Assembly: GCF_000620865.1 (NCBI RefSeq)
Contig: NZ_KK211190.1
Location: 2,121,971-2,185,970 of the forward strand
Source: Exiguobacterium sibiricum 7-3
GTDB taxonomy: Bacteria > Bacillota > Bacilli > Exiguobacteriales > Exiguobacteriaceae
Length of the DNA stretch: 64,000 bases
Reading direction: 5' to 3'
Part shown: positions 42,609 to 48,476 of the stretch, piece by piece
How positions within the stretch are numbered: position 1 is the first letter of the stretch
How the letters are laid out: each line of letters starts with the position of its first letter
Position numbers and translations under genes: made by a program
The notes under the pieces: generated by a model
What the model was told of the DNA's origin: nothing
What the model saw: only the letters and a program-made list of their open reading frames with translations
Databases searched by the model: none

Positions 42609-42657
42609 AAAAAACAGTAAGCGACTCAGGAATAACCCACTGAGGCACTTACTGTTT
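42609..42657 (-). terminator. Terminator of the HNH-like gene
   Basis: On the minus strand AAACAGTAAG...CTCAG pairs with CTGAG...CTTACTGTTT, mismatches inside, then T. Its 5' arm contains the stop codon of the gene. Confidence 0.78.
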
Positions 42658-43275
42658 GGGAGAAGCTTGATCCGACGTGGCAGCAACGTCTTCCATTTTT
42701 TCGATACTTTGATGTGCCAATCGATGACAAGTCGGACAAAGTGTCTGAAAGTGACCGTGATGTTCGTGCCATTCTAGAATTGATTGCTGTGCGTTTCCAC
42801 ACATCTCGCAAAATTCTTTTAGCAGTGCAGGATGATTCCGTTCACGAAAACGTTCCATCCGACGATTTTTTGCTTGATCGATTGTCGTCACATCCGATTC
42901 AAAATGACCGGCTTGCCAGGCTTCCACCAACCACTGTCTGACTTTCAAATCCGTTTGTCCCGGTTTCACCTGTAATCCTGATAACGGTGACCCTAACAAC
43001 GGATGCCGTAAATCCACGCTGATCAAATCCAGGCAGGCATACGTACGTTCTTGTTCATCCGCTTCCGTCAACCAGTGAGGATCTGCTGGTCGTGTCGTGT
43101 ACTCGCTGAACAAAACTTCGGCATACGCAACGATTCCATCTTTCGTCGCCAAAAATACTTCTTCCCCTTCGGCTAGCTCCGCCGGTAAATAAAACGGTTC
43201 TTTCGTTTCATAATATAAGACGACTGCTTGCCTTAAGGCAAATTCTGATTCTTCAACGACTAGTAGATGGCACAC
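42649..43275 (-). CDS. Unrecognised protein with C-terminal HNH-like zinc domain
   Basis: 208 aa. No named family can be assigned. The last 60 residues (CEMC..., LEWHEHHGHFQT, LCPTCHRLAH) resemble an HNH nuclease with two CxxC zinc pairs; His replaces the usual Asn in HFQTLCPTCH. The middle (EEVFLATKDGIVAYAEVLFSEYT) could be a PUA/EVE-like fold, seen in some modification-dependent restriction enzymes, but this is only a resemblance. The start is uncertain: GTG at 43275 has GAGAGAGGTG upstream; a GTG at 43329 would overlap nfo. It follows nfo by about 20 bp. Confidence 0.55.
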   Translation of the reverse strand: MCHLLVVEESEFALRQAVVLYYETKEPFYLPAELAEGEEVFLATKDGIVAYAEVLFSEYTTRPADPHWLTEADEQERTYACLDLISVDLRHPLLGSPLSGLQVKPGQTDLKVRQWLVEAWQAGHFESDVTTIDQAKNRRMERFRERNHPALLKEFCEMCGNAQQSILEWHEHHGHFQTLCPTCHRLAHQSIEKMEDVAATSDQASPKQ

Positions 43276-43295
43276 GCGACAGACACCTCTCTCAT

Positions 43296-44195
43296 TTAAA
43301 TGGATGTACCGATCAGTGGCAAACGCCACTCGGCGTCAAAATTTCCCGAACGTAACATGGCAATTTCTTCACGATAAGGTGCAACCTTCTTTTTTGGATC
43401 CAGTCCGATATAGGGTGTTTCAAGAATTTTTGGTAAATGGGCCAAATCCTGATGATGAACGATTCGATGTAACGGGTCAAAACCGATTTCCCCAAATCCG
43501 ATATTTTCGTGACGGTCTTTTTTGGCACCGCGAATATTCTTCGAATCATTGACATGAATCACGCCAATACGGTCAATCCCGACGATACGATCGAATGATT
43601 CCAATACTCCGTCCAGATCATGAATGAGATCATAACCGGCATCATGGACGTGACACGTATCGAGACAGACGGACAGGCGGTCATTGTGCGTCACACCAGC
43701 AATGATTTCTGCAATTTCTTCGAACGTCTTACCAATTTCTGACCCCTTTCCGGCCATCGTTTCGAGAGCGATTTTTACTTTTTCATCTCCCGTTAACACT
43801 TCATTGAGCCCTTCAATGATTCGTTTGATTCCGATTTCTTCCCCGGCACCGACATGTGCGCCTGGGTGCAGGACGATATGTTTTGCTTTTTCGAGAGCTT
43901 CCGCCCGCCGGATTTCTTCCCCTAAAAACGACACGGCTAATTCAAACGTTTCCGGTTTCGTCGTATTGCCTAAATTGATGATATAAGGTGCATGGACGAC
44001 GATTTCTTCAATTCCGTTTGCTTCCATATGCAACAATGCTTCTGGAATTCGCAAATCGGAGATCGGTTTTCGTCTTGTATTTTGGGGTGCTCCTGTATAG
44101 ACCATCATGGTCGTTGCACCATAAGAGGCCGCTTCTTCACTCGCACCAAGTAACATTTTTTTGCCTGAAAGAGACACATGTGAACCGATTTTCAT
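43296..44195 (-). CDS. nfo: Deoxyribonuclease IV (AP endonuclease)
   Basis: Cuts DNA at abasic sites in base excision repair, with a trinuclear zinc centre. 299 aa, TIM barrel. [13 protein letters not shown] starts it, with [33 protein letters not shown] and [10 protein letters not shown] as family signatures. The start has AAGGGTGG upstream; an earlier ATG would add 29 unlikely residues. nfo then cshB is the B. subtilis order. Confidence 0.95.
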
Positions 44196-44265
44196 TAAAA
44201 ATTCCACCCTTCTTCTGCTTCTAGTGTACCAAATGTCGAAAAAAACAAGAACCTTTAGCGATACT

Positions 44266-44306
44266 AAAAAAACAAAGTCCACGAATTCTATCGTAGACTT
44301 TGTTTA
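44266..44306 (-). terminator. Intrinsic terminator of cshB
   Basis: On the minus strand AAACAAAGTCTACGA pairs with TCGTGGACTTTGTTT (one T-G), followed by T. Confidence 0.9.
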
Positions 44307-44341
44307 AACCGTTCGACTTCGGCTTGAATGCCGAGGACTGA

Positions 44342-45694
44342 TTATTTTGTTTTACTTGCGTTCGCTTTACGTTCAGCACGTCCGATTCCACGTTGTTCTT
44401 TGATTCGTTCGCGTTTTGCTGTTTCTTTCAGTTTATACTGGTGTTTCTTTTTATAACCTGGTTTGACACGTTTTTTCGCTTTTGCAGCTTCACCTGATAA
44501 ACGACTGTGCGCGGTTTTCGAAACTGCTGTTTTCATGTGTGGTTTCGCACGACGGCGTTCCTTCACTTCGCTGACTTGACCACTCTTGACATCGACGTTG
44601 ATGAATTCAATACCACGGTCTTCAAGACGGTTGATCGAACCATTTTCGTGATCTTCAAACAATGTGTAAGCCAATCCGTCTTGGTCAACACGACCCGTCC
44701 GACCGACACGGTGAACATAGAAGTCGAGATCTTTCGGAATCCCGTGGTTGATGACGTGCGAGACACCTGAAATATCGATGCCGCGTGCAGCAAGATCCGT
44801 TACGATAACGTACTGGTATTTCGCTTCGTTAATTTCCTTGATGGCTTGTTTCCGACGACGGGCCGGCAAGTCACCGTGAAGCGAACCGACGTTGAGTCCC
44901 GCTTCAAGGAAGAGAGCTTCGAGTTCGATCGCTTCTGTTTTCGTATTCGTAAAGACGAGACAGATATACGGGTTGAGGGCTTTCGCCAGTTTCAACGTCA
45001 AATCAGAACGATCACGGTGTTTGACCGGAACCGTATGGTGCACGATTTTTTTCGCTGTCTGTTGTTTTGGGTCCACATGCGCATAACGTGGATTGTTCAT
45101 ATATTTTTTCAAGAACGGTTGCAGTTTTTCAGGAATCGTTGCCGAGAAGACCATCATCTGTAACTTCTCCGGTAATGCTTGGGCAATCCGGTCGACTTCC
45201 GGCAAGAATCCCATGTCGAGCATCTGATCCGCTTCATCGATGATGTAATGTTTCACGAAATGCGGTTTCAATGCTTGTTCTTTAAAGAGGTCCAGGATGC
45301 GGCCCGGCGTTCCGATCACGATTTGCGGTGAGACTTTGACACGTCCGATTTGACGTTCGCGATCCATTCCACCTGTGATAAGGCTTGTCTTGATGTAATC
45401 AGGTTGTTTGACGAGGATCGATTTCAATTCCTCGTGAATCTGCCAAGCGAGCTCGCGCGTCGGTGCGACGATGATAGCTTGCATTTCTTGAAGTTCCGGA
45501 TTGACATTTTGAACGATCGGCAAGAGGAACGACAACGTTTTTCCTGTTCCTGTCTGTGATTGTCCAATGATATCCCGCCCTTTGAGCGCTGCTGGAATGA
45601 TCCGGGATTGAATATCGGTTGGTTTTTTAATACGTGCGTCTTCGAGTGCTTCGACGACGAACGGGTGCAAATCGAAATGGGTAAATCCATTCAT
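44342..45694 (-). CDS. cshB: DEAD-box RNA helicase CshB
   Basis: 450-aa RNA helicase that remodels RNA, important in the cold and for ribosome assembly. SQTGTGKT (motif I), PTRELAWQ, GTPGR, DEAD, SAT and HRVGRTGR are intact. The C-terminal 80 residues are Lys/Arg rich, as in CshB. The start MNGFTHFDLHPF has AAAGGAT upstream, with a longer form 20 residues upstream possible. It follows nfo in B. subtilis order. Confidence 0.92.
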   Translation of the reverse strand: MNGFTHFDLHPFVVEALEDARIKKPTDIQSRIIPAALKGRDIIGQSQTGTGKTLSFLLPIVQNVNPELQEMQAIIVAPTRELAWQIHEELKSILVKQPDYIKTSLITGGMDRERQIGRVKVSPQIVIGTPGRILDLFKEQALKPHFVKHYIIDEADQMLDMGFLPEVDRIAQALPEKLQMMVFSATIPEKLQPFLKKYMNNPRYAHVDPKQQTAKKIVHHTVPVKHRDRSDLTLKLAKALNPYICLVFTNTKTEAIELEALFLEAGLNVGSLHGDLPARRRKQAIKEINEAKYQYVIVTDLAARGIDISGVSHVINHGIPKDLDFYVHRVGRTGRVDQDGLAYTLFEDHENGSINRLEDRGIEFINVDVKSGQVSEVKERRRAKPHMKTAVSKTAHSRLSGEAAKAKKRVKPGYKKKHQYKLKETAKRERIKEQRGIGRAERKANASKTK

Positions 45695-45762
45695 ATTTGT
45701 CACCATCCTTTCTCTTTCTTTAACAATTAAAGGCGAATCGTCCGCCTTCACCATCTATTTCT

Positions 45763-46716
45763 TTAGTTCAACATGGGTATTGGTCTACTACCGTCATACA
45801 AATATGAATACGTATAGAAACGATCGGGAATTTTTTTGTTTTTCGTATGAAGCTTCAACGCGCTGAAGGCGACTTTCATCATCTCTTCAGCGGACTGGAC
45901 GACTGTCGCGTCCATCGATTTCATGTCAACAGCTTCTAATATAGCACGATTCCCATCAATTCCGACAACTATTTTTCCGGAAATGTTTGCTTTTTTCAAT
46001 GCTTCGAGTACTCCCATCGCAATATCGTCATTGTGACAGTAGACCGCATCAAACGGAATTCCGGACTCGATTACCTGCCGCATGACACGTTCGGATGTGA
46101 CCGGATCGTAGTTTCCGCTTGCAGAATCGACAATGGAAAGCGCCGGCTCATTTTCGATTCCTTTTAAGAATCCCCGGTGCCGTTCATTTGTCGTATAAAC
46201 GTTTGCCGTACCCGTGATTTCGACGATCCGTCCCTTTGATTGACCGGTACTTTTGATTAACTCATTCTTAATATAGGAAGCCAATTGTTCCCCAATCATT
46301 TGATTATTAGATGTTATCGAGCTCACGACAGCATCTGAACGAATCATGCGATCGATCGCAAATACAGGGATTCCTGCTTTTTTGGCTTCTTCGATGGCAC
46401 TTCCGATATAGACATCATCCAGTGTCGTGATGAAGATGGCATCAACTTTCAATTGAACGAATTCCAAAATCTGTTCGCGTTCACTTATTCGGGAATTTTG
46501 CGACGTCGCTACCAACGCTTCGTATTTATTGGTTTTCGCCTCTGCCTTAAAGGCATTGATTAACCGTTGCGCAAATTCATGTTTGTCATTCACGATTGTA
46601 AATCCTACGACATTCCGTTTAGGACTTGTTTCCTTTTGGACAAACATGTTGGAAATGACAAGGACGGATGCAATCCAAATGATTAAAACAAACAACCAGG
46701 ACTTGTTGAATCTCAT
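45763..46716 (-). CDS. Sugar-type substrate-binding protein with N-terminal membrane anchor
   Basis: 317-aa protein with the periplasmic-binding I fold of the RbsB class: VVGFTIVNDKHEFAQRLI, VDAIFITTLD, AGIPVFAIDR, AVYCHNDDIAMGVLEAL and VVGIDGN. The N-terminus has one hydrophobic helix (about 7-26) without a lipobox, so the protein is probably tethered outside. It overlaps the upstream sensor kinase gene by 4 bp, and no ABC permease or ATPase is near. This suggests a co-sensor for the kinase rather than a transporter subunit; ligand unknown. Confidence 0.82.
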   Translation of the reverse strand: MRFNKSWLFVLIIWIASVLVISNMFVQKETSPKRNVVGFTIVNDKHEFAQRLINAFKAEAKTNKYEALVATSQNSRISEREQILEFVQLKVDAIFITTLDDVYIGSAIEEAKKAGIPVFAIDRMIRSDAVVSSITSNNQMIGEQLASYIKNELIKSTGQSKGRIVEITGTANVYTTNERHRGFLKGIENEPALSIVDSASGNYDPVTSERVMRQVIESGIPFDAVYCHNDDIAMGVLEALKKANISGKIVVGIDGNRAILEAVDMKSMDATVVQSAEEMMKVAFSALKLHTKNKKIPDRFYTYSYLYDGSRPIPMLN

Positions 46717-48476
46717 GCCTGCTCCTCCCGTCTTGGGAAAAAGAGTTGTACTGTCGTCCCGACACCGACCTTACTGTCGACTTCGATTCGTCCATTATGC
46801 TGACGAACGATCTGATTAGACATGAACAATCCTAAACCATTGCCGTTGATTTTAGACGTATTAAATGCCTGTCCAATCATGAGAATCTGTTCCTCCGTCA
46901 TTCCAACACCATTATCCTGGACGATAAATACAAACTGATCAGGATATACATGGAGGTGGACATGACAAATCCCGTCTGGCCCTTTCGATTCGACGGCATC
47001 CAGTGCGTTTCCGATACAGTTCGACAACACTTGTAACAAGCCATTTTCCGAAGCATACAGCGGCGGCATATGTGCCGGTGTGTAAATCTTGCAGTCCGCT
47101 TCGTAGGGATGTGATTTCGATTCGAGAATGAACGTTAATTTCTCCATCATTTTTTTCATATCAATCTGTTCCATTGCCAGCGTTGTTTTATCATTTTTGG
47201 ATAAATCGAGCATCGTCTGAATTAACTGGTTGGCCCGGTCCAGTTCGGATAAGGCAATTTGCATCATATCCGGATTGTTTTGTTTTTCTTCTGACAGCAG
47301 TTGCAGTGCCATCTTAACCGGTGTCAACGGATTTCGGATTTCATGGGCAATTCCTGCCGCCAGTTGTCCGAGAGATGCCAGTTTTTCCTGATGTAAAATC
47401 ACCTGTTGCTGACTCAACTGTTCGACCCGTGCATGTTCCATCCTTTGCGCATATTCATTGTAGGCGGAGACTAAGGTCTTGACTTCATTCGAGCCAGAAC
47501 GTTCCAGAGTAATCGGTTGAGGTGTCGTACTTTTTTCGATTTTTTGAACAAGTTCCAGTAAGGGTGCTGTCAATTGCCGCGACATCAAATAACCGACAAT
47601 CAGACTGAGCACCAACGTAAGTGCCGCAATGACCAAATATTGCTGACGTGTCGTATAGACCGGTTCGTAAAATACACTCCGCGGTGTGCGCACTAGGATT
47701 TTCCAATCCGTCACCTTCAAATCGCGTGCGAAATAGTACATATCTTTATTTGTACTAAAGATTTCGTACGGTTTGCTGCTTTTGAAAGCCCGATTGACAA
47801 CACTTTGACTCAAGAGGCGTTCTTGATCGGTCACAAGATTTTTAGATGTTGCCAGCGGCTCACCCTGGCTGTTAAATAAATAGGCCATCGTATCATCATC
47901 AAACGATTCCAGTGAATTTCGAAAAACGACGGAATTCATAAGACTGAGCCCTCCACCAAATACGCCGACCCGCTCATTGCCATTTCGAACCGAGACATAC
48001 ATATAGGTCAAAGAATCATTCGCTATATCATAACGTGGACTCATATGAAAATCCGTACTCGTCAGAGCTTGTACAAAAGAGTCATCGCGACGAATCTTGG
48101 AATCCGAAATACGGCGATCTTCACTCGAAAACCAGGTGATTTTATCGGTTTTACGATCATAATAAAAGAAGCTTTTAAATCCGGTATCGATATCCAGCAA
48201 ATTCGAATCCCGAATCGCTCGATCGAGATTGTTCATATTTGTGACATTCAATTGAAGACTCATGATTTTTTCGTGTAAGTTCCCGACGCTGTCGCGTAAC
48301 GCATTACTCGAGACTTCGACACTTTTTTCACTCTGTTTCTCCGTCTGCTGTTCGACTCGTGAAATCGTGACACGGTCTGCGGTAAAGGCAAGTGCCGAGA
48401 TGACAAGACAAATAAGAATGAACAAAACAGCCGTGATTTGGAAAAAATAGGACCGCATCATCTTTTTCGTCTCCAT
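46713..48476 (-). CDS. Orphan sensor histidine kinase with extracellular Cache-type domain
   Basis: 587 aa. TM1 is about residues 10-32, an extracellular Cache-type sensor 35-275, TM2 280-298, HAMP 300-350, HisKA with His378 in AGIAHEIRNPLTP, and a HATPase with NCIGNALDA (N box), DNGVGM and GNGLGLF. The Cache part has FFYYDRKTDKITWFSS. AHEIRNPLT is of the type seen in NtrB/AtoS and sporulation kinases. No response regulator is adjacent. GGAGGGG precedes the ATG. It is cotranscribed with a binding protein; in B. subtilis this position between cshB and ispH has no kinase. Confidence 0.88.
   Translation of the reverse strand: METKKMMRSYFFQITAVLFILICLVISALAFTADRVTISRVEQQTEKQSEKSVEVSSNALRDSVGNLHEKIMSLQLNVTNMNNLDRAIRDSNLLDIDTGFKSFFYYDRKTDKITWFSSEDRRISDSKIRRDDSFVQALTSTDFHMSPRYDIANDSLTYMYVSVRNGNERVGVFGGGLSLMNSVVFRNSLESFDDDTMAYLFNSQGEPLATSKNLVTDQERLLSQSVVNRAFKSSKPYEIFSTNKDMYYFARDLKVTDWKILVRTPRSVFYEPVYTTRQQYLVIAALTLVLSLIVGYLMSRQLTAPLLELVQKIEKSTTPQPITLERSGSNEVKTLVSAYNEYAQRMEHARVEQLSQQQVILHQEKLASLGQLAAGIAHEIRNPLTPVKMALQLLSEEKQNNPDMMQIALSELDRANQLIQTMLDLSKNDKTTLAMEQIDMKKMMEKLTFILESKSHPYEADCKIYTPAHMPPLYASENGLLQVLSNCIGNALDAVESKGPDGICHVHLHVYPDQFVFIVQDNGVGMTEEQILMIGQAFNTSKINGNGLGLFMSNQIVRQHNGRIEVDSKVGVGTTVQLFFPRREEQA

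Follow-up and report, generated by a model that had tools for sequence, protein, structure and literature searches.

A family-specific orphan sensor kinase and its probable tethered co-sensor in Exiguobacterium, a candidate input to a retained Spo0 relay

What does an orphan sensor histidine kinase perceive, and where does its phosphate go, when the gene overlapping its own encodes a sugar-type binding protein and neither a regulator nor a transporter adjoins the two? Such a pair lies in the window, the stretch of 64,000 nucleotides of Exiguobacterium sibiricum 7-3 that we analysed, on a chromosome of 3.08 Mb in 7 contigs. Upstream of the kinase gene lies ispH, which is divergent, and downstream, in the same direction as the pair, follow a cshB-type helicase gene and a gene that we take to be of endonuclease-IV type. 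The parts of the pair, in window coordinates, are as follows.

46713-48476, minus strand: orphan dCache sensor histidine kinase, 587 aa (open reading frame and domain profiles)
48378..48446, minus strand: putative membrane helix 1 of the kinase, about residues 11-33 (hydrophobic stretch in the sequence and a helix in the model)
47649..48374, minus strand: predicted extracellular dCache sensor of the kinase, residues 35-276 (ortholog profiles and predicted fold)
47577..47648, minus strand: membrane helix 2 of the kinase, about residues 277-300 (sequence)
Kinase residues 297-347: weak HAMP-like stretch that begins at the end of helix 2 (Pfam HAMP E 0.039, below the cut-off)
47190..47372, minus strand: HisKA dimerisation/phosphoacceptor domain (E 5e-16), specificity residues T-P-M-A-Q-L
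47343-47345, minus strand: phosphoacceptor His378, within AHEIRNPLTPVKMALQLL
46728..47048, minus strand: HATPase_c catalytic domain of the kinase (E 3e-23)
46713..46716, minus strand: ATGA stop/start overlap of the kinase and binding-protein genes, 4 bp
45763-46716, minus strand: RbsB-class binding protein, 317 aa (Peripla_BP_4 1e-47)
46639..46698, minus strand: N-terminal hydrophobic stretch of the binding protein, a putative signal-anchor without lipobox Cys (sequence)
45832..46608, minus strand: binding domain with invariant pocket residues H46, D122, R123, N229, D254 and Q274

The original prediction had correctly read the 4-bp overlap of the two genes; it also called them fused, and they overlap only. 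Its statement that no response regulator and no ABC permease or ATPase is near holds as well, in that no receiver was found in the window, and the pair has no ABC permease or ATPase beside it; about 70 and 110 kb separate the kinase from the nearest receivers (C7:2098023 and C7:2279726). A promoter and terminator scan of the pair region gave no excess over chance.

We propose that the kinase and the binding protein make one sensor. An uncleaved N-terminal helix would keep the binding protein in the membrane, where it would capture a small, sugar-like extracellular ligand and dock on the kinase's outward-facing dCache domain; ligand binding would alter kinase or phosphatase activity, and the phosphate would most likely pass to the stand-alone receiver Spo0F, from there to Spo0B and on to Spo0A. 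To this explanation as a whole, a membrane-anchored co-sensor and kinase feeding Spo0F-Spo0B-Spo0A, we give a probability of about 0.4. The step at its head, that the binding protein is a co-sensor of the kinase as originally predicted, is likely in view of co-conservation, the loss of transporter and lipobox, an invariant pocket and known precedents; contact between the two proteins and the class of the ligand are presumed. As in three-component kinases, the binding-protein gene adjoins, and is conserved with, that of the sensor kinase, the predicted extracellular dCache domain could receive a binding protein, and a ligand pocket is retained, while the usual third component, a cognate regulator beside the kinase, is absent in the window and in 20 relatives.

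Both genes of the pair are present in 19/19 genomes of the own genus, and profile searches found both the binding protein and the sensor of the kinase in 38/38 genomes of the Exiguobacterium family, which comprise two genera; at E 1e-4 the sensor profile matched all 38 and had 0 matches in 361 other Bacilli genomes. Gene-by-gene reading of 20 neighbourhoods, 19 from the sister genus and one from a deep member of the own genus, showed ispH, kinase-binding protein and cshB in unchanged order in every case; no regulator and no ABC permease or ATPase stood beside the pair, and the overlap measured 4 bp in 20/20 relatives. Between the genera the pair proteins share 37-46% identity, with ispH at about 76% and cshB at about 70%. 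A single locus throughout the family, together with the lack of sensor matches in the 361 other Bacilli genomes, marks an old family-specific unit; the earlier impression that the pair looks inserted was thus misleading, and a recent insertion was rejected on account of the constant locus. Judged from these comparisons, the pair is an ancestral, fast-evolving unit specific to the Exiguobacterium family. The comparison of neighbourhoods in relatives had been proposed with the original prediction and bore it out, co-occurrence being conserved, and independent loss of either gene, named there as a refuting outcome, was seen in no clean case, with one relative having a frameshifted kinase. The other such outcome, a regulator or permease adjacent in relatives, did not occur in the neighbourhoods read either.

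In that relative (L079 1462-3284; G008 C1 about 2472750-2474570) the frameshift, which falls close to membrane helix 2, splits the kinase gene and leaves the binding protein intact. A stop in the kinase of one relative is trivial because it falls 2 residues before the normal end, and broken kinases were rejected as a sign of pathway decay, only one real frameshift remaining.

To which regulator could such a kinase speak? A genome-wide search for unpaired receivers, again a check that the original prediction had proposed, covered 25 receivers and about 30 kinase-type ATPase domains and found Spo0A and a Spo0F-like receiver among the unpaired ones. Spo0A lies next to recN-ahrC and passes the TIGR02875 equivalog model (267.6 bits, cut-off 200), the Spo0F-like receiver lies between pyrG and fba, and a Spo0B-like gene, which has a premature stop, lies between rpmA and obg, so that all three members of the relay are encoded in this genome; each was also found in 38/38 family genomes (Spo0A through Spo0A_C). 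E. sibiricum has been reported to possess spo0A, spo0B and a Spo0F homolog, with the sporulation operons absent (PMC2615787), and Exiguobacterium is listed as a Spo0A-positive non-spore-former (PMC3533761). The pair kinase, an orphan with a HisKA domain, belongs to the HEIRNP class and is the only one of this type among those detected in the genome, the remaining unpaired HisKA kinases being eight with HELRTPL boxes and the specificity residues SSGFEL or ASGYEL. Among the solved relatives of the pair kinase, KinB comes second (93 bits, vs 62 for HK853); for an SSGFEL orphan kinase, KinB ranks 24. Because Spo0F, Spo0B and Spo0A are retained and the pair kinase is the only HEIRNP type detected, the Spo0 relay comes first among the candidates for its output, at slightly less than even odds; Spo0F as its direct partner we infer with less assurance.

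In strain 7-3 the spo0B gene (L132 2884-3368; G000 C7 about 957884-958368) has an in-frame stop seven residues after the phosphoacceptor histidine (RHEWLNRL-stop), a position that is read through in 29/29 other copies examined. The gene is either a real pseudogene or carries a sequencing error, and unless the latter applies, this strain has an interrupted relay together with an intact pair.

The six specificity positions of the HisKA domain were placed with a KinA sequence that we take to be accurate. They are those of PMC6136694 (H+7, 8, 11, 12, 14 and 15), deduced from its KinA string. At these positions Bacillus Spo0F kinases read TxGFQL (PMC6136694), a signature that the pair kinase lacks: it reads TPMAQL in the window, and TPMAQL, TPMTQL or TPVAQL across the own genus, whereas the sister genus and the deepest own-genus member have TPITQM (in one case TPITQL). 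Filing it with kinases of the KinA-KinE kind was rejected on these residues. The phosphorelay hint in the original prediction thus stands as regards Spo0A, Spo0F and Spo0B, all encoded elsewhere in the genome, and falls short at the specificity residues. Those of Spo0F read EGILQLD in the own genus, EGILQMD in the deep member and QGIMQVD in the sister genus (QGILEVD in B. subtilis); Spo0F and the pair kinase both drift between the genera, while a stand-alone CheY-like receiver, which adjoins one of the SSGFEL orphan kinases, reads EVLLDTS everywhere examined. The signature test thus failed. That kinase and Spo0F may drift together is suggestive at best, since the independent changes are tiny in number and Spo0A also shifts between the genera (NEMLQHS to NEILRQN), so that the drift does not single out Spo0F.

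The same co-sensor pair might send its output past Spo0F, to the CheY-like receiver, to Spo0A directly or to a regulator with a kinase of its own, an alternative that we regard as doubtful and yet as the most serious one. It is favoured by the departure of TPMAQL from TxGFQL, by an A-Q-L tail resembling that of C. acetobutylicum kinases that act directly on Spo0A (NISAQL; PMC6136694), and by the intact pair in a strain whose spo0B is broken. However, the EVLLDT interface of the CheY-like receiver is invariant in both genera and the adjoining SSGFEL kinase is nearly constant too, which suggests that these two pair with each other, and an output other than Spo0F would leave Spo0F without a clear kinase. 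Spo0F could be served instead by the eight SSGFEL/ASGYEL kinases, which have the G, F and L positions in common with TxGFQL. We retain the flow through Spo0F, Spo0B and Spo0A as the preferred reading.

The eight orphan kinases (G000 C7: 182785, 300787, 391935, 1864348, 1960164, 2043183, 2277148 and 2672197), whose specificity residues are near-identical, and the receiver with the invariant interface look like a many-kinases-to-one-receiver network. Elsewhere in the genome, a VanR/OmpR-like regulator of 159 aa, with most of its output domain gone and possibly broken, precedes a TSGFQW kinase (L018 2876-4921; G000 C7:2743375-2745420).

On the input side, the Cache domain named in the original prediction was a correct call, though it is undetectable in the window protein alone: Pfam dCache_1 has no match in the window kinase and matches 10/15 sensor orthologs (best 4e-11). 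The sensor was modelled separately because the full-length kinase model was too poor (pLDDT 69.5, pTM 0.43), its fold search being filled by kinase cores. The sensor-only model (pLDDT 84.7, pTM 0.81) matches chemoreceptor domains with Z 17 and the sensor of B. subtilis KinD with Z 15.2 over 198 residues, and is predicted to be a complete double Cache fold; a sequence search of the PDB with the sensor profile gave nothing useful. The shared dCache fold itself shows no ligand. Nor is the kinase a KinD ortholog, a candidate that was rejected since the NCBIfam KinD model reaches 108.9 bits against a cut-off of 775, over the kinase core only.

Amino-acid-binding dCache domains carry the pattern R-x-W-[YF]. 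This pattern is absent in 15/15 sensors examined, a weak hint against a further alternative, in which the dCache domain itself senses a small molecule, the binding protein modulates the kinase or does something else, and the overlap is a matter of operon packing. The complete dCache fold predicted for the sensor would suit direct sensing, and the dCache domain of KinD binds AI-2 directly (PMC7584622); but co-conservation of the two genes is unbroken, the 4-bp overlap is fixed in a fast-evolving pair, and the binding protein has no adjoining transporter, and we consider direct sensing improbable compared with a binding protein that serves as co-sensor.

What kind of binding protein would this co-sensor be? 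The binding proteins of the pair score 480-570 bits with their own profile inside the family, and outside it scores are 162 or less; examination of the 12 best relatives outside the family placed them in RbsB-type ABC operons, and they have a lipobox-like Cys near the N-terminus. The drop in score and the operons of the outside relatives indicate that the copy in the pair left transport. None of 33/33 aligned orthologs has a Cys in its first 40 residues, and the binding protein is presumably tethered to the membrane by an uncleaved N-terminal helix. In a tree the pair binding proteins form a single clade; this tree has long branches and one wrongly translated row (L051) and was used only for single-clade status. 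Taken together, the sequences describe an RbsB relative that has diverged, losing both transporter and lipobox. Filing it as an RbsB transport protein was rejected, given 106 bits against the curated RbsB cut-off of 337, the missing lipobox Cys and the lack of ABC neighbours. That it still works in uptake through an ABC transporter elsewhere, such as that of the rbs operon present in the genome (C7:679104-683773), with its place beside the kinase incidental, is very improbable, as this operon has an RbsB of its own (366 bits) and the pair protein has a putative signal-anchor without lipobox and adjoins the kinase in every relative read.

The pocket of the putative co-sensor was mapped through phmmer alignments to ribose and furanose binders. 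Six polar positions of RbsB type, H46, D122, R123, N229, D254 and Q274, are invariant in the 33 aligned orthologs (hypergeometric p 2e-4), and we take D122, R123, N229, D254, Q274 and H46 to correspond to RbsB D89, R90, N190, D215, Q235 and N13; the equivalents of RbsB F16 and R141 are lost. A sugar-like molecule other than ribose is a natural guess for the ligand. PDB entry 3L6U is nearly identical to the window protein over residues 29-310 and is presumably the E. sibiricum ortholog, which fits an E. sibiricum gene that is 96% identical. A literature search on 3L6U found no paper, and the existence of this crystal structure makes the binding protein practical to work on.

Several known systems share parts of this design. 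Med is a BMP/PnrA-type lipoprotein of B. subtilis, and KinD-Med is similar to the pair in joining an orphan dCache kinase to an extracellular membrane-associated protein, with output to Spo0A through the phosphorelay, as we propose here. The two differ in the class of the binding protein, which in the pair is RbsB-type with a signal anchor, in the specificity residues (TGGFQL in KinD, TPMAQL in the pair kinase) and in that no overlap between the genes of KinD and Med is known. That KinD needs Med is given in PMC11210211 as a citation of Banse 2011. In Vibrio, the RbsB-class LuxP controls LuxQ, a kinase with an extracellular tandem PAS/Cache domain, but LuxQ is a hybrid kinase of Gram-negative bacteria and LuxP is a soluble periplasmic protein. 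The clostridial CuaDSR and XylFII-LytSR systems similarly combine a sugar-binding protein with a Firmicutes sensor kinase, which it activates; their regulator adjoins the kinase and they control a sugar transport operon, whereas the pair has neither beside it. DctB-DctS and HptA-HptS, compared by description, follow the same logic of binding protein and kinase, with the difference that they have an adjacent regulator.

The kind of system is known from LuxPQ, CuaDSR and KinD-Med, and this variant, an orphan pair found throughout a family that forms no spores, seems to have no description in the literature searched. The pair offers a concrete candidate input for the sporulation relay that non-sporulating Exiguobacterium has kept, and may illustrate how a sugar-uptake binding protein becomes a dedicated signalling co-receptor. 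The fullest version, in which the non-sporulating family keeps Spo0F-Spo0B-Spo0A driven by a family-specific receptor with a tethered ex-transporter co-sensor, kinase and Spo0F specificity having shifted together from the Bacillus pattern, would unite these points and is on balance unlikely.

Two observations concern the surroundings of the pair. The genes for the kinase, the binding protein, the cshB-type helicase and the endonuclease-IV-type protein follow one another without interruption and in one direction in the relatives read (window 42649-48476), and a single transcript from the kinase to the endonuclease-IV-type gene, tying the sensor to a cold-shock helicase, is possible. The gene downstream of the latter (window 42649-43329) has 25-29% identity to its counterpart in the sister genus, with 70-80% for its neighbours, and by this measure evolves very fast.
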